The notes below the pieces were generated by a model that saw only the letters and a list, made by a program, of their open reading frames with translations, was not told the origin of the DNA and made no database searches. Of a DNA stretch of 43,198 bases, positions 17,790 through 28,418 are shown one piece after another. Location of the stretch: NCBI GenBank assembly GCA_024276305.1, contig JAJRXK010000064.1:1-43198 (forward strand). The letters run 5' to 3'. Both the position numbers and the translations under genes were made by a program. Within the stretch, counting starts at the first letter, position 1. The number at the start of each line of letters is the position of its first letter. This DNA is from Candidatus Krumholzibacteriota bacterium. Lineage in GTDB: Bacteria > Krumholzibacteriota > Krumholzibacteriia > JAJRXK01.

Positions 17790-18647
17790 GTGAGCCATTC
17801 CCTCGCCCTGACTCTTCGGATGATCAAATGGGAGCACACGATCTTTGCTCTCCCCTTCGCGGTGCTGTCCTTGCTCGTGGCCAGCGATGGGCGGCCGGGT
17901 TGGGCGGTACTCTTCTGGGTGCTGGTGGCGATGATCGGTGCGCGGTCGACCGCGATGGCCTTCAATCGACTGGTCGACGCGAACTTCGACGGGCGCAACC
18001 CACGAACCGCCGACCGCGAGATCCCTTCGGGGAAGTTGGCCCGGGGTCCGGTGATCGCCTTCACCGTCGCGACGGCGCTCCTGCTGGTCCTCGCATCATG
18101 GCGTCTCAACCCTCTCTGTCTGACTCTCTCTCCGGTCGCTTTGGCGGTCGTCTATTTCTATTCGTGGACCAAGCGTTTCACCGCCCTGAGCCAGCTCTTC
18201 CTGGGCCTGGGTCTGGGCATCGCACCGGTGGGCGCCTGGCTCGCCTCTACCGGAAGCTTCGGGGTCTTCCCGTTGTTGCTCGGGGGCGCGGTGTTGTGCT
18301 GGGTCGCAGGATTCGACACCCTCTATGCCTGTCAGGACATCGATTTCGATCGTGAGGCGGGGCTCCACTCCCTGCCCGCGTGGTTGGGGTCGGACCGGGC
18401 GCGGTGGGTCTCACGTGGGTTGCACCTGAGCGCGGTGGGGCTGTGGATCGCCGCCGGCCGATTCGCGCCGTCCTTGGGGGGGCTCTACTTCGTGGCCGTC
18501 GGTCTCGTCGCGGGCCTGTTGACCTACGAGCAGTGGCTCGTCCGAGGAGGGGACCTGCGCCGCATCGATCGAGCATTCTTCGAAGTGAACAGTTGGGTGG
18601 GCGTCGTCCTCCTCGCGGTGTCGACCGCGGATCTCTACCTCTTCTGA
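17790..18647 (+). CDS. ubiA: UbiA-family prenyltransferase
   Basis: A 285-residue polytopic membrane protein that attaches a polyprenyl chain to an aromatic acid in quinone synthesis. It has both Asp-rich motifs of the family: NRLVDANFDGRNPRTADREIPSG in the first cytoplasmic loop and ACQDIDFDREAGLHSLP in the second, separated by hydrophobic helices. The GTG start at 17790 lies 1 nt after the ubiX stop; an AATGAAG stretch precedes it. Given the futalosine genes nearby, it may be the MqnP-type enzyme acting on 1,4-dihydroxy-6-naphthoate or its precursor; 4-hydroxybenzoate is the alternative substrate. Good confidence in family, moderate in substrate. Confidence 0.92.
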   Translation: MSHSLALTLRMIKWEHTIFALPFAVLSLLVASDGRPGWAVLFWVLVAMIGARSTAMAFNRLVDANFDGRNPRTADREIPSGKLARGPVIAFTVATALLLVLASWRLNPLCLTLSPVALAVVYFYSWTKRFTALSQLFLGLGLGIAPVGAWLASTGSFGVFPLLLGGAVLCWVAGFDTLYACQDIDFDREAGLHSLPAWLGSDRARWVSRGLHLSAVGLWIAAGRFAPSLGGLYFVAVGLVAGLLTYEQWLVRGGDLRRIDRAFFEVNSWVGVVLLAVSTADLYLF

Positions 18648-18726: not shown

Positions 18727-18834
18727 CGAGGCGCCCAAGGATCTGGTTCCCAACCCAGCTCTCGCGCCTCGCCACCGCGGATTCGATTCGCGGTTCGTCG
18801 AGAGCTGCCCTTACCCCGATCATTGGAGTAGATG

Positions 18835-19305
18835 ATGTTTCAGAGGATAGCCCTTCTCTCGCCGCTGCTGGCTCTCGCATTCCTGTTGTACAGCCCGTCG
18901 GCCCAAGCCCAATGCACCCAACTCGATCAAGACGGAGATGGTTTCCTTTCGATCGCCTGTGGGGGTGCGGATTGCGACGATCTCGATGCGTTGATCAACC
19001 CGATCGCCACAGAAGTCGTCGCCGATGGCATCGACAGCAACTGTGATGGCCTCGAGCTCTGCTACGCGGACCTCGATGCCGATGGCTGGGGCGATTCCAA
19101 CAACCTGGTGCTGAGTTCGAACCTGAGTTGCGCGGGCCCCGGAATCGCCGCGGTCGGCGGTGATTGCGACGACACCTCGCAGAACACTCACCCGGGCGCG
19201 GTCGACATCCCCAACAATGGCATCGACGAGGACTGCAATGGCTACGACGAGACGGCGGTCCCGACCTCGAACGGAAACTGGGGAATGCTGAAGCGCCGAT
19301 ACTAG
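18835..19305 (+). CDS. Small secreted MopE-like putative metal-binding protein
   Basis: A 156-residue protein with a signal peptide (hydrophobic to about residue 20, cleavage near SAQAQ). It carries two copies of the Asp/Asn/Cys-rich motif typical of the MopE-type putative metal-binding repeat. The first runs from GADCDDLDALINP to DSNCDG and the second from GGDCDDTSQNTHPGA to DEDCNG. A DQDGDG calcium-loop-like stretch precedes the first. Such repeats occur in many secreted proteins of delta-proteobacteria and FCB-type bacteria; copper binding is shown only for MopE itself, whose site includes a modified Trp not evident here. The ATG at 18835 is preferred over 18832 by spacing from GGAG. It converges with the giant repeat protein. 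Function unknown. Confidence 0.8.
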   Translation: MFQRIALLSPLLALAFLLYSPSAQAQCTQLDQDGDGFLSIACGGADCDDLDALINPIATEVVADGIDSNCDGLELCYADLDADGWGDSNNLVLSSNLSCAGPGIAAVGGDCDDTSQNTHPGAVDIPNNGIDEDCNGYDETAVPTSNGNWGMLKRRY

Positions 19306-19429: not shown

Positions 19430-22400
19430 TCAGCGCACCAGAGCCATCTTCACCATGGCCGAGCGTCCCTCCGAGACCAGCCGGGCGAAGTAGACTCCCG
19501 AGGACACGTCCTGGCCCAGGTCATCCTTCCCATTCCAGAGAGCGTCGTGGGAGCCGGCGCGGAGTTCCTCTCTCCGCAGCAGGTGTCGCACCACTCGGCC
19601 GGCAGCATTGTACACGGTGAGATCGACGCGGCCCGGGGTCTCCAGGCCGAAGCGAAGGATGGTGCGAGGGTTGAAGGGATTGGGGACCGCGCCGACCAGG
19701 GCGAAGCGGGCCGCCGACGGTAGGGGATCGGCCGCCACGATGGTGCAGCCCGTGCCGAAGGCTCCCATGGTCGAGCCGCAAGCATTGTGAATGTCCAGAG
19801 CGGGCGAGGCGGCGTCGAGAGTGTAATTCCCCTGGGCCACATCGCAGTAGTAGGGATCGGCATTCAGGTTGTCGCGCAGAGGATCGGTATCCTGGCCCGC
19901 GATGCAGCCGACGTAGTCTCCCCCCGCGTTGTTCCAGATGTCACTGCAAGTGATGTCGACGGTCTCGACTTCAGGGTCGGTGCTGCAATAGACCGCGGGC
20001 CCACCGGTCCCGTTGGTGAGGAGCGATTGACTCAAAGTGAGCGAGGCTCCCTGCATCAGATAGAAGTGTGACGAGGTGGGGCTTCCACCTCCATCGAAGG
20101 TGCTTCGACTGACGGTGGCGGAAGCGGTTGCTCCGGTGATCACGATCCCGCCCGAATAGGAATTGGCGGTATTGTTCGCGAAGAGGCAGGAATCGACGGT
20201 CGCGGTGGCATTGACGAAGTAGAGCCCCCCCCCGTAGACCGCGTGGTTCTGGAGGAATTGGCATCCGACGAAGACCGGGGCGCCGCCGAGGGTGCACGCT
20301 CCCCCGACATTGCCCACGGCCGTGTTGTTCGAGAAGGTGCAGCGGAGGAACTGCGGGGAGGGGGACCCAGAGCTGTGGACGGCTCCGCTGTTGACCCCTC
20401 CCTGATTCGATTCGAAGCGGCAGCCGTCGAAGATGGGAGCCACGGCGTCTCCGAGCAATACCGAGCCCCCGTATCCGGAGTAGCCGCCACGGAAGGTGAT
20501 GTTCTCGAAGCGCAGAGCATTTCCTTCGCCGTTCTGGATGGTGAGATGCCGGTGGTTGACCGAGGCGCTGCCTTGGGCATCGACGATACACGCCGCCGCG
20601 TTTCCGCTCTGCGAGCGCAGCGTGAACATCTTGCCCCCCGGGTTCAGACTTCGGTTTCCGTCTCCGGTGAAGGTTCCATCGGCCAGCTCGATGATTCCGC
20701 CGTCGGCGATGGTGGAGAATGCAGTGGCGATATTCACCACGTCCCCGCTTCCGTCCGCCTTGACGAGCAAGTAGGCGGGAGGGGCAAAGCAATTCACCGG
20801 ATAACGTCCGATGTCCGTAGCGCAGGCGTTGTTGGCCGCCGCGCAGGGCGAAGTGTCCAACAAGGTCAGGTCACCCACTCCCGGCGCGCAGTACTGGGGG
20901 TCGGCGCTGATGTTGTTGCGCAGGGGATCGGTGTCCTGCCCAGCCGCGCATCCGGTGTAGTCCCCCCCTGCGTTGTTCCACAAATCGCTGCAATTGATGT
21001 CCAGGGTCTCCACCGGAGTATCCGAACTGCACACGGTCGCAGGACCACCAAGTCCGTTGGTGACCAGAGTGTTGGTCAGAGTGACCGCCGCTCCTTGCAG
21101 GAGGTAGAGCTGCGAAGCCGCGGGGCCCGAATTCGCATCGAAGGTGCTCGAGCTGATCGAAGTCGACGCGCCGGAGATTTGGACGGCCCCCGCGTGGTAG
21201 GTGGAGGTATTCGCGGTGAAGGTGCACGAGTCGACGGTGGCGGTGGCGTCCACCAAGTAGAGAGCGCCGCCTCCATAAGCGGACTGGTTGGAGTCGAAGA
21301 CGCAATCGCGAAAGACCGGGCTTCCCGGCATGGTGCAGGCCCCGCCGGCGTTGGTGACCGCAGTGTTCCCGATGAACGAGCAGCCCAGGAATTGGGGAGA
21401 CGGTGATCCGAGACCGTTCACCGCTCCACTATTGATTCCGGCTTGGTTCGATACGAAACGACAACCCACGAAGACCGGAGCCACGCCGTTCTTCAACAGG
21501 ACCGATCCTCCGTAACCGTAGTAGCCTCCCTGGAAGGTGATGTTCTCGATCCGCAGCGCGTTGCCCTCACCATTCTGAAGGGTCAGATGGCGCCGTTGGG
21601 CCGAAGAAGAAGCCTGTGCATCGAGGATACACGCCGAGGCGTTGCCGCTCTGCGATCGCAGAGTGAAGACCTTGCCGCCAGGATCGAGGGAGTAGTTCCC
21701 GGCCCCGGTGAAGGTGCCGTCGGCGAGTTCGATGAGCCCCCCGGGGGCGATCGCCGAGAAGGCCGCGGCAATGGTGGTCACGTCGCCGTTGCCGTCCGCT
21801 CTCACCAGAATGTACTGGAGGAGGTCGGAGTAGAGGGTCGAGGTGAAGGTGTTGTTGGTCTCGTCGGTCTCGATGGCGGCGTCGGTGATGTCGAGGTCGA
21901 TCTGCAGGTTGTGCGCGCCACCGCTGAGGGCGGGGAGTGCGCAGGGCACCACCGTCGAGGCGCCCGCCGAGAGATAGGGGACGCTCACGCTGTCGCAGAC
22001 CACCGATCCGTCGACACTCACTCGCAACCTAGAGGTGGGGCAAGAGGCGAGTCCCTGGTTGCGGACCACCACGTCGAGGGTGTTGGGCTGATTGACGATC
22101 ACCGTGTCCGGAGAGGTCGAGGTGACCAGGAGATCGGGGCGATCCACGGTGCCCGCGGGGCGCAGCATGGTCAGGCTTCGAGTCCAGCCACCGCTGGTCC
22201 GCCACGGGGACCAGGGTTGGAGCGGGTTGCGGGTGATCACGCGGGTCTGCCAGTGGTAAGGAGTGAGAGGAGAAAGACCCGATGGACTGACGGCGAAGTT
22301 CGCCGACGCGCTCCGAGTCCAGGAGCCCACGGTCGTCACCGCGGCCAAATCGAGGTTGGAAGTGGTGGTGGTCAGGCGATACTGCAGACGGTGGTCCACC

Positions 22401-25177
22401 CGGCCCGCGCTGTTCTGGCTCGTCAGGCGGAGGGTCAGCGAACCGGTGCTGCGGAAGAGGCGAGATGCCGCCAACGATCCATTGGACTGAGTGGCGACCA
22501 TGGGACGCGGGGCATTGTTGCGTTCGGCGCTGTTTCCGCGGTAGAGATAGGCCGTGCCCAAGGTGCCGAAGAAGGCGGACTGATAGGCATCGGGGGCCCC
22601 GACCACGAGTTCCGCGAAACCGTCTCCGTCGATGTCCCCGGCCGCTCCCACGAAACGCCCGAACTCCACCCCCGAGACCGGAGGCGTCAGGGTCAACGAG
22701 GGTTGGGTCTGCAGCCCCGAGAAGGGGATGCCGGAGAAGATCTCGACGACTTCCGCCAGTCCGGAGATCGCGATCTCGGCCGCGCCGTCCCCGTCGAGGT
22801 CTCCCAGGCCGGTCAGGCTTCGACCGTATTGTTCGTTGGGAAGAGTCTGCCCGTCTCGCCACCAAGAGGCGGTCGAGCTGACTCCGCTCGTGCTTCCGGG
22901 ATAGAGATACACTCGTCCGTAAGGAGTGCCGGTTCCTGAGGAGTATCCGGGGGCGGCGATGAGCAGGTCTTCGCGCCCGTCCTGATCCACATCTCCCGCA
23001 CTGGCCACCGTCAATCCGACCATTTCGAAGGATGCATTGCCTCGGAACGAGGCATCGGGTTGGGATCCGAAACCGTTGACGCTCCCGAGGAAGACCCCGA
23101 CGGCCCCTTCGAAGAAGTTCGAGATTCCCGCCTTGGGAGCTCCCACGGCCAGATCGCTGCGACCGTCGCCGTTGAAGTCGCCCAGGGCCAGGTCGTAGCC
23201 GGTCAGCGCCCAGCTGGCCTGAAGGTCACCTCGCAACTGCCAGGCGGGGGATGTCGAGAGGCCTCCTGCGCCTCCCAGATAGAGCTGCGCTCTCCCCGCG
23301 TCGGTTGCGCTGGGGCCATCCCAGTTGGGCGATCCCACGACGAGGTCCGCATAGCCGTCTCCGTCGACATCGCCCACTCCGGTGATCGAGAACCCGAAGT
23401 TCTCGCCGGCTTGGTCTCCGCTCAGGATCCAAGTCGGAGTGGTGGAGGGAAGGGGGGAGGCACCACGATAGATGCGGACCTCGCCGTGACCGGCGGCTCC
23501 CACTGCGGCCACCGCGATCTCGGGCAGACCGTCTCCATCGACGTCGCCCAGAATGGAGACCCTGGAGCCCACGCTGTCGGCGACCGTCGAGCCGTAGACC
23601 GCCCAGGACGGAGAGCTGGCGAGTCCCGTGGACGAGCCCAGAAAGAGGTTCGCCCGCCCCTTGCCCGAAAAGTTGCCGGGCGCGCCCACCAGCAGGTCGT
23701 CGTAACCGTCGCCGTTGATGTCGCCTCCATGGCGACTCAGGCCGGCGCCCTGCCGAGCGTTGTCGCTCGCGCCGCCGTTGATGACCCATTGGGAAGCGGC
23801 ATTGGGCAGATCACCGTGGCCGGAGAAGATTCCGAGAGTGCTCGGATCCACGGGCATCATCCAGTCCATGTAGCCGTCGCCGTCGACGTCGCCGGCTCCG
23901 GCCGGATGGAAGGAGGTCCAGTTGGTGGGGAGCAAGGCTTGGGTGCCTTCCACCCAGTAGGTGGGGGTGGCCAGAGGACCCGAATCGCCTCCGAGGTAGA
24001 TGTGGACGAAGTCGGGGATCGTGTCCTGGATCGGGTTGAGATAGTTGTAAGGGTGGTCCTTCGCGCTGGCGACGAGCAGGTCCGCGTAGCCGTCGCCGTT
24101 GACATCGCCGATCTCGGCCACCGAGTTGCCGATGTTGTCCCAGAGCTCGCCGATTTTCGCCCAGGTCTCGGTGGGTCCGGTGGGGCTTCCGGAATAGAGG
24201 GCGACTCGGCCGTGAGTCCAGACCTTGTTGTACTGGGTGTTCAGCACCGACCAATGAGGAGCTCCGATGAGCAGATCTGCGTAGCCGTCGCCATCGACAT
24301 CCCCGACGCCGGCAAGGGCCCATCCGAAGTCGGTCGAAGTCGCCTGCCCATCGGAGGGACCGTTCAGAAACCAAGAAGGAGTGGTGAGGGGACCGGTCGC
24401 TCGGCCGCGATAGATCAACACTCCGCCTTCGGGGTAGTTCACGGAATTCTGGGATTCATTCCGTGCAATGTCGTCGTAGCCGTCGCCGTCGATGTCTCCC
24501 GCCCCCACGAGCGGGGAGGTGAAGTGGTGATCGACCTGCCACAGTTGGTTTCCGATCCCCGAGCTGCTCCCGGCGAAGAGGAATCCCTGGTCGACGGTGC
24601 TCACCGGATCACTGACGCTGAGAATGTCGGCGTAACCGTCACCGTTGATGTCCCCCGCTCGGGAGACCTGAAAGCCGAGCCGACTTCCCGGGCCGGCCCC
24701 GAGGACCGTTTGGGCCGGGGTGGTTGCGATTCCGCCGGACGATCCTGGGTAGAAGTAGAGGGCCCCGCGATCATCCGTGGAGGCGTAGCCGGGGGCGTCG
24801 GCCGAGGGGGCGCCGATCACCAGATCATCGAATCCGTCGCCATTGATGTCTCCGCACACTCCGATATTCCGGCCTCCCGCATTCACCGACCCATCGCCGC
24901 TGACCACCGGGAGGATCTCGACGAAGGTCCCGGTCTGGAGCCCGGTTCGGCTTCCGTAGTAGATGTACTGGCTGGTGGTTCCCGGCACGATCACGTCGGT
25001 ATAGCCGTCTCCGTTGAGGTCACCGGCCCCCTGCGGGGTGTGCGATAAGAGCAAATAGCTGCCGCCATCGGAGAGGCTTTGGTCCGGCGATACCGCCCCG
25101 CTGGCCCAGAGCTTCGGGGGCGAGAGGGTGAGGATCGCGGTGCAGAGCACTAGGGAGAGGAATCTTCCCGACTTCAT
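19430..25177 (-). CDS. Giant secreted FG-GAP/VCBS-CARDB-beta-helix protein with FlgD/T9SS-like C-terminus
   Basis: A 1,915-residue secreted protein. The ATG at 25177 has GGAGG 6 nt upstream and starts a signal peptide (MKSGRFLSLVLCTAILTLS, ending near WASG). The frame stays open far upstream but without coherent protein. From the N-terminus: 14 FG-GAP/VCBS-type calcium-loop repeats of the type GDVDGDGYADLLIGAP (about residues 45-870), which could build two seven-bladed propellers. Next is a fibronectin-like section, then a CARDB-like domain (PDLLVTSTSPDTVIVNQPNTL onward). Two tandem right-handed beta-helix units of ~340 residues follow, each opening with a VRADGNGDV/VKADGSGDV strand and rich in short GG-S-V turns. 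The last ~90 residues are a FlgD/T9SS-like module (VPNPFNPRTILRFGL, then VYNAAGRVVRHLL). Likely a surface or extracellular adhesin or scaffold; no enzyme motif is seen. Confidence 0.9.
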   Translation of the reverse strand: MKSGRFLSLVLCTAILTLSPPKLWASGAVSPDQSLSDGGSYLLLSHTPQGAGDLNGDGYTDVIVPGTTSQYIYYGSRTGLQTGTFVEILPVVSGDGSVNAGGRNIGVCGDINGDGFDDLVIGAPSADAPGYASTDDRGALYFYPGSSGGIATTPAQTVLGAGPGSRLGFQVSRAGDINGDGYADILSVSDPVSTVDQGFLFAGSSSGIGNQLWQVDHHFTSPLVGAGDIDGDGYDDIARNESQNSVNYPEGGVLIYRGRATGPLTTPSWFLNGPSDGQATSTDFGWALAGVGDVDGDGYADLLIGAPHWSVLNTQYNKVWTHGRVALYSGSPTGPTETWAKIGELWDNIGNSVAEIGDVNGDGYADLLVASAKDHPYNYLNPIQDTIPDFVHIYLGGDSGPLATPTYWVEGTQALLPTNWTSFHPAGAGDVDGDGYMDWMMPVDPSTLGIFSGHGDLPNAASQWVINGGASDNARQGAGLSRHGGDINGDGYDDLLVGAPGNFSGKGRANLFLGSSTGLASSPSWAVYGSTVADSVGSRVSILGDVDGDGLPEIAVAAVGAAGHGEVRIYRGASPLPSTTPTWILSGDQAGENFGFSITGVGDVDGDGYADLVVGSPNWDGPSATDAGRAQLYLGGAGGLSTSPAWQLRGDLQASWALTGYDLALGDFNGDGRSDLAVGAPKAGISNFFEGAVGVFLGSVNGFGSQPDASFRGNASFEMVGLTVASAGDVDQDGREDLLIAAPGYSSGTGTPYGRVYLYPGSTSGVSSTASWWRDGQTLPNEQYGRSLTGLGDLDGDGAAEIAISGLAEVVEIFSGIPFSGLQTQPSLTLTPPVSGVEFGRFVGAAGDIDGDGFAELVVGAPDAYQSAFFGTLGTAYLYRGNSAERNNAPRPMVATQSNGSLAASRLFRSTGSLTLRLTSQNSAGRVDHRLQYRLTTTTSNLDLAAVTTVGSWTRSASANFAVSPSGLSPLTPYHWQTRVITRNPLQPWSPWRTSGGWTRSLTMLRPAGTVDRPDLLVTSTSPDTVIVNQPNTLDVVVRNQGLASCPTSRLRVSVDGSVVCDSVSVPYLSAGASTVVPCALPALSGGAHNLQIDLDITDAAIETDETNNTFTSTLYSDLLQYILVRADGNGDVTTIAAAFSAIAPGGLIELADGTFTGAGNYSLDPGGKVFTLRSQSGNASACILDAQASSSAQRRHLTLQNGEGNALRIENITFQGGYYGYGGSVLLKNGVAPVFVGCRFVSNQAGINSGAVNGLGSPSPQFLGCSFIGNTAVTNAGGACTMPGSPVFRDCVFDSNQSAYGGGALYLVDATATVDSCTFTANTSTYHAGAVQISGASTSISSSTFDANSGPAASQLYLLQGAAVTLTNTLVTNGLGGPATVCSSDTPVETLDINCSDLWNNAGGDYTGCAAGQDTDPLRNNISADPQYCAPGVGDLTLLDTSPCAAANNACATDIGRYPVNCFAPPAYLLVKADGSGDVVNIATAFSTIADGGIIELADGTFTGDGNRSLNPGGKMFTLRSQSGNAAACIVDAQGSASVNHRHLTIQNGEGNALRFENITFRGGYSGYGGSVLLGDAVAPIFDGCRFESNQGGVNSGAVHSSGSPSPQFLRCTFSNNTAVGNVGGACTLGGAPVFVGCQFLQNHAVYGGGLYFVNATATVDSCLFANNTANSYSGGIVITGATASATVSRSTFDGGGSPTSSHFYLMQGASLTLSQSLLTNGTGGPAVYCSTDPEVETVDITCSDIWNNAGGDYVGCIAGQDTDPLRDNLNADPYYCDVAQGNYTLDAASPALDIHNACGSTMGAFGTGCTIVAADPLPSAARFALVGAVPNPFNPRTILRFGLETPGRVDLTVYNAAGRVVRHLLRREELRAGSHDALWNGKDDLGQDVSSGVYFARLVSEGRSAMVKMALVR
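19756..20773 (-). repeat. Beta-helix unit 2 of a ~1 kb internal tandem duplication
   Basis: This is the C-terminal copy inside the giant gene, starting at a Tyr codon before LLVKADGSGDV. It matches unit 1 in order throughout (e.g. IELADGTFTG, FTLRSQSGNA, IQNGEGNALR, CSDIWNNAGGDYVGC, AGQDTDPLRDN). Boundaries are approximate. Confidence 0.8.
20774..21814 (-). repeat. Beta-helix unit 1 of a ~1 kb internal tandem duplication
   Basis: This is the N-terminal copy, directly abutting unit 2. It has the same segments (IELADGTFTG, FTLRSQSGNA, LQNGEGNALR, CSDLWNNAGGDYTGC, AGQDTDPLRNN). Similarity is obvious at both protein and DNA level, so the duplication is fairly recent or kept alike by gene conversion. 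Confidence 0.8.
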
Positions 25178-25282: not shown

Positions 25283-26410
25283 ATGGGCCACGGGGGGGCT
25301 GGCGGCCGTCCGGGGCTGGACGCCAACGGCGATCCTGAATACCTTGGCCCGGGACCGAAGCCCGCCTCCCGACTCGATTTCTTCTGCGGAGTTCCCTTGT
25401 CTGCCACCGATGACCGCCGCGAATTGCGTGATCTTCTCTCCCAACGCAGCCCTCACGGGATCGTCCATGCCGCGCACGAGGTGCGCCGCCGGATTCACGG
25501 ATCGCGGACGACCTTCGTCGCGAATGCTCACCTCGATTGCAGCCCTGCAGGCCTGCCCTGGTGTCCGCTCACGGGAGAGATGGCCCCCGATGGAGGTTTC
25601 GCCAGGAGGGCCGCAGACCTCCCCGAGGTGGCCACCCAGACCCTGGTCCTCTTCGGAAGCTCGCCGACATCGGCCGACCTCGAGGCGGGATGGGCCGAGA
25701 CCACTTCGGCCGACCCCTCGACCGATCCTCCCACGACCCTTCAATTGGGATGCGCCACCGACTGGGCCCGGATCTATTCCGGCGACGACCGGGGTCGCCG
25801 ACTCGAGGAGTGGCGGCGGCGAGGACTCTCGGTGATCTCCGACGGCGTGCGCCCGGGACTTCACCCCGCCTTCGGCGAGGAATCCGCGAGCGAGTGGAGC
25901 GCATTCTGGCAGGCTGCGGCCGCAGCGGGGATTCGGGGACAGGCGACGGTGCTCTACGGTCCGGGCCACGACCTCGATGCGGTCTTCGCGCAGATCGATG
26001 CCATCGACCGACTTCAGTCTGCAGTGGGTGTCTTCGATGGGGTGAGCCCGGTGGTCTACCTCGACTCGGCCTTCGGTGGACCAGAGGATGCGCTCAGCAC
26101 TCAATCCACCCAGGACCTGCGGGTTCTGGCCGCTTGCCGTCTCGCGCTCCCCACCATCTCGCATCTGCGACTGCTCTACGATCGAGGCGATCTCAAGAGC
26201 GCCCACACCGCATTGCTCTGCGGAGTCGATGACCTCGAGGGTCATCTGTTCCTGGGAGCCCGGGATCGGAAGGCAGAAGTCGAGTCCGAGGATCTGAGTC
26301 TCGCCGAGATGTCCCGCTGGCTCGAGGAGGTCGGCTTCGAGGCCCGCCTTCGCAACGGCCTCTATCAATCCCGCCCTGTACCGATGCAGTCATCGGCCGA
26401 ATCGTCCTGA
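25283..26410 (+). CDS. Degenerate MqnE/MqnC-like protein lacking radical SAM motifs
   Basis: A ~375-residue homologue of the menaquinone radical SAM enzymes MqnE/MqnC that appears catalytically disabled. The N-terminal HAAHEVRRRIHGSRTTFVANAHL matches the strand before the Fe-S motif, but CxxxCxxC is absent: only Cys86 and Cys94 (CSPAGLPWC) remain. The SAM-binding PGGGAE motif is replaced by ISDGVRPGLHP. The C-terminal half aligns well with the neighbouring MqnC: GIRGQATVLYGPG versus GMRTTATMMFGHI, QDLRVLAACRLALPTI versus EYLRVLAICRLALNNI, and CGVDDLEG versus WGANDLGS. It ends 10 bp before mqnA in the same direction. The start is uncertain: ATG 25283 is used because similarity begins near residue 30; TTG 25397 has a better ribosome site but would cut similarity. 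It may be a partner or regulator of the pathway, or a decaying mqnE. Confidence 0.75.
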   Translation: MGHGGAGGRPGLDANGDPEYLGPGPKPASRLDFFCGVPLSATDDRRELRDLLSQRSPHGIVHAAHEVRRRIHGSRTTFVANAHLDCSPAGLPWCPLTGEMAPDGGFARRAADLPEVATQTLVLFGSSPTSADLEAGWAETTSADPSTDPPTTLQLGCATDWARIYSGDDRGRRLEEWRRRGLSVISDGVRPGLHPAFGEESASEWSAFWQAAAAAGIRGQATVLYGPGHDLDAVFAQIDAIDRLQSAVGVFDGVSPVVYLDSAFGGPEDALSTQSTQDLRVLAACRLALPTISHLRLLYDRGDLKSAHTALLCGVDDLEGHLFLGARDRKAEVESEDLSLAEMSRWLEEVGFEARLRNGLYQSRPVPMQSSAESS

Positions 26411-26420
26411 TGGGATGCAC

Positions 26421-27245
26421 ATGAGCGATTTTCAACGCAACCTCCGCATTGGCGCGGTGAGCTTCCTGAACACGGTGCCGTTGATCGAGGGGTTGGAGGA
26501 TCGGCCGGGCATCGATCTGCAGCGCGATCTTCCCTCGCGTCTGGCGGATCTGCTCTTCGAAGGTCGCATCGACGTGGGACTGATTCCGGTGGTCGAGTAT
26601 CTCCGGGGCGTGGGCACTGAACTCGTGGCCGGAGTGTGCATTGCATCACGGGGCCCGGTCCGCACGGTGAAGGTCTTCAGTCAGATCCCGCTTCCCGAGG
26701 CCACCAGCATCGCGGTGGATCGCGGATCCCGAAGCAGCGTGGCCCTGCTCCGAGTTCTCCTGGCGGAGCTCTACGATCGCCAGCCGGACCTGCACGTGGT
26801 GGAGCCGCGGCCGGAGCTCCTCTTCCACCAGCATCCGACCGCCTTGGTCATCGGCGACCGGGCCGAGCGGATCGCCTCGGAGGGACTGCATGTCTACGAC
26901 CTGGGTCAGATGTGGTACGAACTGACCGGCTTGCCCTTCGTCTTCGCGGCCTGGGCCCTGGGACCGCATCTGGCCCCGGCGGCGGAATTCGACGATCGAC
27001 GCCGGGCCCTGGTGCGGGAATTGGGGGCCGCGCGCGACCGCGGCTTGGCGCGTTTGGGAGAGCTCGCCCAGCGGGAGGCCGACTCTCGGGGAGCCGACGC
27101 CGCCGACATTCTGGATTACTGGACCCAGAGCATCCACTACCGCCTGGGGGAGGAGGAACTCCGCGGCCTGCGTCGATTCGCCGAGCTGGCGGCCCGTCAC
27201 GACCTCGTACCCCGGTGCCGAGAAGTGGCTCTGGCCCAGAGTTGA
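26421..27245 (+). CDS. mqnA: Chorismate dehydratase (futalosine menaquinone pathway)
   Basis: A 274-residue protein that dehydrates chorismate to 3-enolpyruvylbenzoate, the entry step of the futalosine route. It has the periplasmic-binding-protein-like fold of the family: RIGAVSFLNTVPLIEGL at the N-terminus, PSRLADLLFEGRIDVGLIPVVEY, then SIAVDRGSRSS and ALVIGDRA. The LPFVFAAWAL strand near residue 170 is also conserved. ATG 26421 is used; an in-frame ATG at 26415 is possible. It lies between the degenerate MqnE-like gene (10 bp) and mqnC (45 bp), in one operon. Confidence 0.95.
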   Translation: MSDFQRNLRIGAVSFLNTVPLIEGLEDRPGIDLQRDLPSRLADLLFEGRIDVGLIPVVEYLRGVGTELVAGVCIASRGPVRTVKVFSQIPLPEATSIAVDRGSRSSVALLRVLLAELYDRQPDLHVVEPRPELLFHQHPTALVIGDRAERIASEGLHVYDLGQMWYELTGLPFVFAAWALGPHLAPAAEFDDRRRALVRELGAARDRGLARLGELAQREADSRGADAADILDYWTQSIHYRLGEEELRGLRRFAELAARHDLVPRCREVALAQS

Positions 27246-27290
27246 GTCCCCGGATGGCCGCCGCCGCCGGAATCTTCTAGGATGATCGAC

Positions 27291-28418
27291 ATGACCCACC
27301 CGACCTACAGCCCGGACCCGGCCATCGACGAGATCCTTCTGCGAGCGGTGGACGGTGAAGCCCTCACCGGGGGCGAGATCCTCACCCTCATGGACGAGGG
27401 GGAGGTGCATGCGCTGGGCCGAGCGGCCCACGACCTGCGTCTGCGCCAATGCGATCCGCAGCGGGTGACCTTCGTGGTCGACCGCAACATCAACTACAGC
27501 AATGTCTGCTACGCCGACTGCACCTTCTGTGCATTCTACCGCCACAAGGATGCCGATGGTGCCTATGTCCTCAGTTATGAGCAGATCTACGAGAAGATCG
27601 AGGAGCTGCTGGAGATCGGCGGCACTCAAGTGCTGCTGCAGGGCGGCCACCATCCCAACTTGAAGCTCGATTGGTACCAGGGACTGCTCCGCGGCATCAA
27701 GGAACGCTATCCCGTACACATTCACGGCTTCAGCCCGAGCGAGGTGCTCAACTTCTCGAAGGTGTTCAAGATGAGCACGCGCGAAGTGATCGCAGAGCTG
27801 CAGGCTGCGGGTCTCGACAGCATTCCCGGAGGGGGGGCCGAGATCCTCGTGGACCGTGTCCGGACTTCGTTGGCGCGGTCGAAGGTCGATGCCGCCGGCT
27901 GGCTGGGCATCATGGAGGAGGCCCACAGCCTGGGGATGCGCACCACCGCGACCATGATGTTCGGGCACATCGAAACCATTCCGGAGCGGGTCGAACACCT
28001 CCTGCGGGTGCGCGAGAGCCAGGCGCGGACCGGAGGCTATACGGCCTTCATCCCCTGGACCTTCCAGCCCGGATTCACTCCCATGGCCGAATCCCACCCC
28101 GACCAACTCGCGCAGGTGCCGACCTCGACCCACAAGGGCTCGATCGAGTACCTCCGGGTGTTGGCGATCTGCCGGCTCGCCCTCAACAACATTGCGAACT
28201 TCCAGAGTTCGTGGGTCACCCAGGGCCAGAAGATCGGCCAGCTCTCCCTCTTCTGGGGGGCCAACGATCTGGGTTCGGTGATGATGGAGGAGAATGTCGT
28301 CTCTCAGGCGGGAGTGAGTTTCCGTCTCTCCTTGGCCCAGATGACCGCCCTGGTCCAAGACGCCGGCTTCGAAGCGGCCCAGCGGGACAATTTCTACAAC
28401 ATCTTGAGGGCCGCCTGA
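27291..28418 (+). CDS. mqnC: Cyclic dehypoxanthinyl futalosine synthase (radical SAM)
   Basis: A 375-residue radical SAM enzyme that cyclises dehypoxanthinyl futalosine in menaquinone synthesis. The Fe-S motif is CYADCTFCAF (Cys73/77/80 counted from 27291), preceded by FVVDRNINYSNV. It also has GGTQVLLQGGHHP, GFSPSE, DSIPGGGAEILVDRVR and MMFGHIET, a full set of catalytic motifs. The HHPNLKLDWY stretch and the Ile/Asn-rich C-terminus favour MqnC over MqnE. ATG 27291 has AGGA 8 nt upstream; ATG 27282 is in frame but its site is too close. It is the intact counterpart against which the degenerate neighbour two genes upstream can be read. mqnB and mqnD are not in the window. Confidence 0.95.
   Translation: MTHPTYSPDPAIDEILLRAVDGEALTGGEILTLMDEGEVHALGRAAHDLRLRQCDPQRVTFVVDRNINYSNVCYADCTFCAFYRHKDADGAYVLSYEQIYEKIEELLEIGGTQVLLQGGHHPNLKLDWYQGLLRGIKERYPVHIHGFSPSEVLNFSKVFKMSTREVIAELQAAGLDSIPGGGAEILVDRVRTSLARSKVDAAGWLGIMEEAHSLGMRTTATMMFGHIETIPERVEHLLRVRESQARTGGYTAFIPWTFQPGFTPMAESHPDQLAQVPTSTHKGSIEYLRVLAICRLALNNIANFQSSWVTQGQKIGQLSLFWGANDLGSVMMEENVVSQAGVSFRLSLAQMTALVQDAGFEAAQRDNFYNILRAA

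Follow-up and report, generated by a model that had tools for sequence, protein, structure and literature searches.

A gene located between the menaquinone genes mqnP and mqnA in one family of Krumholzibacteriota encodes a predicted barrel of MqnE/MqnC ancestry that has lost the radical SAM motifs and is nevertheless retained by selection. This cluster-less gene, here named PSE, is linked to menaquinone genes, and its stop codon overlaps the start of mqnA in two genomes. We give a probability of about 0.55 to the reading that PSE, stripped of its cluster and of its SAM site, serves the futalosine pathway of menaquinone synthesis as a dedicated carrier or activator, or as a new non-radical enzyme. 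The more specific proposal, that PSE is a non-radical barrel put to a new use, binding a ligand or partner of the pathway and assisting its MqnA end by a mechanism that we infer, stands at roughly even odds.

The gene is located in the window, i.e., the whole stretch of DNA analyzed (43,198 nucleotides, contig JAJRXK010000064.1), which belongs to a Candidatus Krumholzibacteriota genome of 3.5 Mb that is 97.9% complete (G000). The genes that matter for its context are as follows.

17802 to 18644, forward strand: mqnP, UbiA-like menaquinone prenyltransferase, found directly upstream of PSE in three sister genomes
19430 to 25177, reverse strand: FG-GAP-repeat secreted protein with a probable ATG at 25177 and a signal peptide, between mqnP and PSE and divergent from PSE
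25397 to 26410, forward strand: PSE, 337 amino acids from a probable TTG start, with a longer frame from 25283
26415 to 27245, forward strand: mqnA, chorismate dehydratase (PF02621, 172.9 bits), 4 bp past the PSE stop
27282 to 28418, forward strand: mqnC, with intact CYADCTFC and PGGGAE (TIGR03699, 472 bits, above the cut-off)

The frame from 25283 to 26410 on the forward strand is open and encodes 375 amino acids in its long form, the length of about 375 codons given in the initial annotation. The start, however, is probably the TTG at 25397, which is preceded by GCGGAG. Since the orthologues begin near the equivalent of this TTG, and the approximately 38 residues that precede it are unconserved, the product is probably 337 amino acids long. 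The spacing to mqnA, previously given as 10 bp, is 4 bp (PSE stop at 26408 to 26410, mqnA ATG at 26415), and mqnC (27282) is the second gene downstream.

PSE has the same orientation as mqnP and mqnA. The order mqnP-PSE-mqnA is found in two of the sister genomes (G001 and G002), where the mqnA start overlaps the PSE stop (GTGA and ATGA), and the FG-GAP-repeat gene separates mqnP from PSE in G000 only. The linkage to mqnA is not universal, given that in G003 mqnP and PSE are together and mqnA-mqnC is on another contig; as for mqnC, it is found 24 kb away in G002 and on a separate contig in G001. The three outgroup genomes G004, G008, and G006 lack PSE at this site, and mqnP directly adjoins mqnA there (at a distance of 206 bp in G008). 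This adjacency makes an insertion of PSE between the two genes in the family ancestor the probable history, loss in the outgroups being the alternative. Beside mqnP, the window also encodes a small secreted protein with calcium-binding-like repeats (DQDGDG and DLDADGWGD) at 18832 to 19305 on the forward strand.

Each of the four genomes in the family (f1, with three genera) encodes a PSE at more than 500 bits, always with an intact frame and without the motifs; the orthologues are 41 to 50% identical to the protein of the window. The search of the other 76 Krumholzibacteriota genomes returned no PSE, the matches there being of the MqnE/MqnC type and not exceeding 70 bits. A search of the GTDB 220 contigs gave two loci only, those of G003 and G002, and the search of viral contigs gave no match. 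Pairwise identity between the orthologues is 47 to 60% in the C-terminal half and 23 to 39% in the N-terminal half, and 71 columns are invariant. The NG86 dN/dS values for PSE range from 0.28 to 0.62, which are rough values because dS (0.9 to 2.4) is near saturation; pN stays below pS for each of the pairs, and all frames are intact. The corresponding values are 0.17 to 0.40 for mqnC and 0.30 to 0.72 for mqnA, with PSE within the mqnA range, although some 5′ read-through is included in the mqnA rows. By its intact frame, by the selection acting on it, and by the loss of catalytic residues in every orthologue, PSE appears as a conserved pseudoenzyme at the sequence level. The earlier suggestion of a pseudoenzyme kept by selection fits these values and the operon context, and none of the signs that would have spoken for a plain pseudogene (a frameshift or assembly error, a lack of conservation, or a dN/dS near 1) was found.

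Phylogenetic analysis recovered PSE as a single clade (100/100) whose very long stem lies between MqnE and MqnC, with G003 branching first, then G002, and then G000 with G001. A recent duplication of the family's own MqnC was rejected by the AU test (p = 0.0009), and one of the family's own MqnE was weakly rejected (p = 0.025), the branches being very long. These tests therefore indicate that PSE diverged long ago as a third branch beside MqnE and MqnC and is not a recently dead copy; the exact point of attachment is unsafe because the stem is long.

Among the profiles of the NCBIfam collection, PSE matches MqnC (E value of 2.8e-16), MqnE (6e-16), and CofH (5e-14), the best stretch being within residues 184 to 362 of the 375-residue frame; the MqnC and MqnE scores are far short of the family cut-offs. 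Among the Pfam profiles, CofH_C (PF19288) matches residues 275 to 368 of the long frame weakly, at 17.7 bits against a gathering score of 27, and the Radical_SAM profile PF04055 has no match in PSE at E values up to 1. A profile built from the four orthologues and compared with the sequences in the PDB found one clear relative, the MqnE 6xi9 (E value of 8e-12). The AlphaFold model obtained from the four orthologues alone is a TIM barrel (pTM 0.76, pLDDT 72), for which the best PDB match is the MqnE 6xig (E value of 6.5e-16, TM score of 0.62 to 0.71 normalized by query length), followed by PylB, HydE, and BioB. Addition of MqnE and MqnC rows raised the pTM to 0.84 with the same leading match (E value of 2e-17); this second model is partly circular, whereas the orthologue-only model is not. 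PSE is thus predicted to have the TIM-barrel fold of the MqnE/HydE/BioB type, with MqnE as the closest solved relative, and the sequence comparisons point to common descent with the MqnE/MqnC family. The alignment with MqnC, first described as covering most of the length, is strong only in the C-terminal half, and it is mainly the predicted fold that makes the N-terminal half recognizable.

With MqnE (aminofutalosine synthase, TIGR03700) PSE shares the predicted fold (TM score of 0.62 to 0.75), the C-terminal region, the framework residues R248, G276, D279, and R319, and the menaquinone gene context, but it lacks CxxxCxxC, PGGGAE, and the GHxE after β5, and scores 58 bits against a cut-off of 434. 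With MqnC (cyclic dehypoxanthinyl futalosine synthase, TIGR03699) it shares the fold, the C-terminal region, and the LRVLAxCRLAL stretch; the same motifs are lost, the score is 59 bits against 428, and a grouping with the family's own MqnC is rejected by the tree.

Three regions of PSE are of note.

25532 to 25576, forward strand: LDCSPAGLPWCPLTG, residues 46 to 60 of the 337-residue protein, the former CxxxCxxC loop region as placed by alignments
25832 to 25864, forward strand: VISDGVRPGLH, residues 146 to 156, end of β4, formerly the SAM-binding PGGGAE
26177 to 26206, forward strand: Y-x-R-x-DLK-x-AH, residues 261 to 270, end of β7 and the next helix, invariant in the four orthologues

The alignments of the four orthologues bear out the reported loss of CxxxCxxC and replacement of PGGGAE. 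The CxxxCxxC motif of the radical SAM superfamily (PF04055) is missing from all four proteins, with a cysteine mostly at only one of the three cluster positions. The two cysteines reported to remain, Cys86 and Cys94 of the long frame, are present in the window, and Cys94 aligns with the second cluster cysteine. Neither looks functionally fixed, because Cys86 is unconserved and Cys94 is an asparagine in one of the four orthologues. The SAM-binding GG after β2 is replaced by FG, VP, PP, or AP, and PGGGAE at the end of β4 by VISDGVRP, in which SDG and P, together with the H that follows, are invariant across the four proteins.

Loss and retention were scored on the columns that are identical in ten MqnE/MqnC rows. 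Besides the motifs, PSE has lost the Glu of β3, the Glu after β5, and other such columns, and it has retained A26, G143, W167, G178, G188, Q207, R248, L273, G276, D279, and R319. Residues common to PSE and MqnE/MqnC are found at 13 of 71 positions on the noncatalytic face of the barrel versus 4 of 109 on the catalytic face (Fisher p = 0.0015). The PSE-specific invariants, on the other hand, are more common on the catalytic face (16 of 109 versus 3 of 71, p = 0.027; p = 0.16 from residue 136 on). These are coarse tests and the distribution is suggestive only, because it comes from four sequences and from faces assigned by hand on the predicted secondary structure. The residues of β1 to β3 are mostly unfixed among the four orthologues.

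An intact MqnE is encoded elsewhere in G000, on another contig than PSE (G000:C103, 483 bits, above the cut-off), and PSE is thus not a decayed sole MqnE. Moreover, MqnE, MqnC, and PSE are present together in all four genomes of the family, which is a poor fit for the idea of an MqnE that was replaced by a copy elsewhere. G000 also has MqnA, MqnP, and a second PF02621 gene, taken as the candidate MqnD. For MqnB (futalosine hydrolase), TIGR03664 was below the cut-off or absent in all ten Krumholzibacteriota genomes, including those without PSE, and PNP-type proteins (PF01048; e.g., G000:C24:26488-27228) turned up in each of the eight genomes examined, with or without PSE. These nucleosidases may carry out the futalosine step. 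Since they are present and the lack of an MqnB above the cut-off extends to genomes without PSE, it is not specific to the family, and PSE as the missing MqnB was ruled out. The analysis found no pathway step whose absence is peculiar to this family (mqnA, mqnD, mqnP, mqnE, and mqnC are all present). Given that these enzymes were found and that the PNP-type nucleosidases occur with or without PSE, no step emerged that PSE would obviously fill.

In the scenario that we favor, PSE goes back to an ancient third lineage of the MqnE/MqnC (CofH-like) barrel that lost its [4Fe-4S] cluster and its SAM site and came to sit between mqnP and mqnA in the family ancestor, and it would keep the barrel as a ligand- or partner-binding body. 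The remodelled mouth (SDG-P-H at β4, G-D after β6, and Y-R-DLK-AH at β7) may hold a compound or partner of the futalosine pathway, and PSE would then be a noncatalytic accessory, either a prozyme or a carrier, at the end of menaquinone synthesis that runs from MqnA to MqnE/MqnC. It could, for example, take 3-[(1-carboxyvinyl)oxy]benzoate over from MqnA and deliver it to MqnE, or it could tune MqnA. Pseudoenzyme paralogues can assist an active relative (prozymes). In this putative functional analogy, PSE is likewise a motif-less paralogue kept by selection beside the pathway genes of its relatives.

An accessory role (carrier, activator, or subunit) is ranked above a new enzyme because each known step that was checked has a candidate enzyme, and because the residues of β1 to β3 are mostly unfixed. 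An enzyme in which the polar-rebuilt mouth performs an acid-base step on a compound of the futalosine pathway, or on an unrelated one, is nonetheless the strongest of the alternatives, unlikely as it is. TIM barrels switch chemistry readily, and many of the PSE-specific invariants are polar and near strand ends, with D47, D149, H156, D231, R263, D265, K267, H270, and R289 as candidates. The newly fixed polar residues at β4 and β7 are what keeps this reading open. Counting against it, no gap confined to this family was found in the pathway, and the PNP-like nucleosidases that may perform the futalosine step also occur in the outgroups.

More doubtful is a PSE that acts as a heteromeric subunit (prozyme), stabilizing or activating MqnE or MqnC without a metabolite of its own. 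The descent of PSE as a paralogue of both would suit this role, as would the retention of structural-face residues common with them, which is expected for a kept interface; the gene, however, is linked to mqnA and mqnP and not to mqnE, which is on another contig, nor consistently to mqnC, given its location in G001 and G002. A function outside menaquinone synthesis, with the operon position a matter of history, would agree with G003, where PSE stays with mqnP and mqnA is elsewhere, but it is very improbable since in none of the four genomes, across the three genera, is PSE without an mqn gene beside it, and in two of them it overlaps mqnA. A pseudogene, or an assembly error that masks a normal MqnE, for which the low identity of the N-terminal half could be cited, is already refuted by conservation: four separate assemblies have the same intact frame and the same motif loss, which rules out a frameshift hiding a normal motif, 71 columns are invariant, dN/dS is below 1, and an intact MqnE is encoded elsewhere.

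Since PSE is kept under selection in all four genomes, it would seem to be a helper protein or a converted enzyme and not a dead gene. Radical SAM homologues that have degenerated but are retained by selection seem to have been described rarely: no case was found in the open-access literature by title and abstract, a scope that leaves most subscription journals outside, and at the same level no PSE-like protein was found described in the futalosine pathway. A family-wide case between mqnP and mqnA would show that this pathway can use a protein beyond the listed enzymes, and PSE itself would illustrate from nature how a radical SAM barrel can survive without radical chemistry.

Other variations of the pathway were observed in families f2 and f4. 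In family f2, G004 and G008 (the latter one contig of 3.84 Mb) have mqnP-mqnA, a second PF02621 gene (MqnD), and mqnC. No separate MqnE was found in either genome, the sole CofH-family match in each being the MqnC-like one, and in these genomes aminofutalosine may have another source, or a single protein may carry out both steps. In G010, which is marked as 5% contaminated, only one PF02621 gene was found. This genome also encodes an MqnC-like protein (L042:8928-10043, G010:C253) with an intact CIIGCRFC and with SVEGVE in place of PGGGAE, beside a divergent MqnE-like gene. The MqnE-like proteins of family f4 (G006:C131, G010:C253, G014:C9, and G017:C284; L036, L042, L039, and L049) have CX5CX2C (e.g., CVYAKSCQFC) in place of CX3CX2C in all four genomes, with PGGGA kept.
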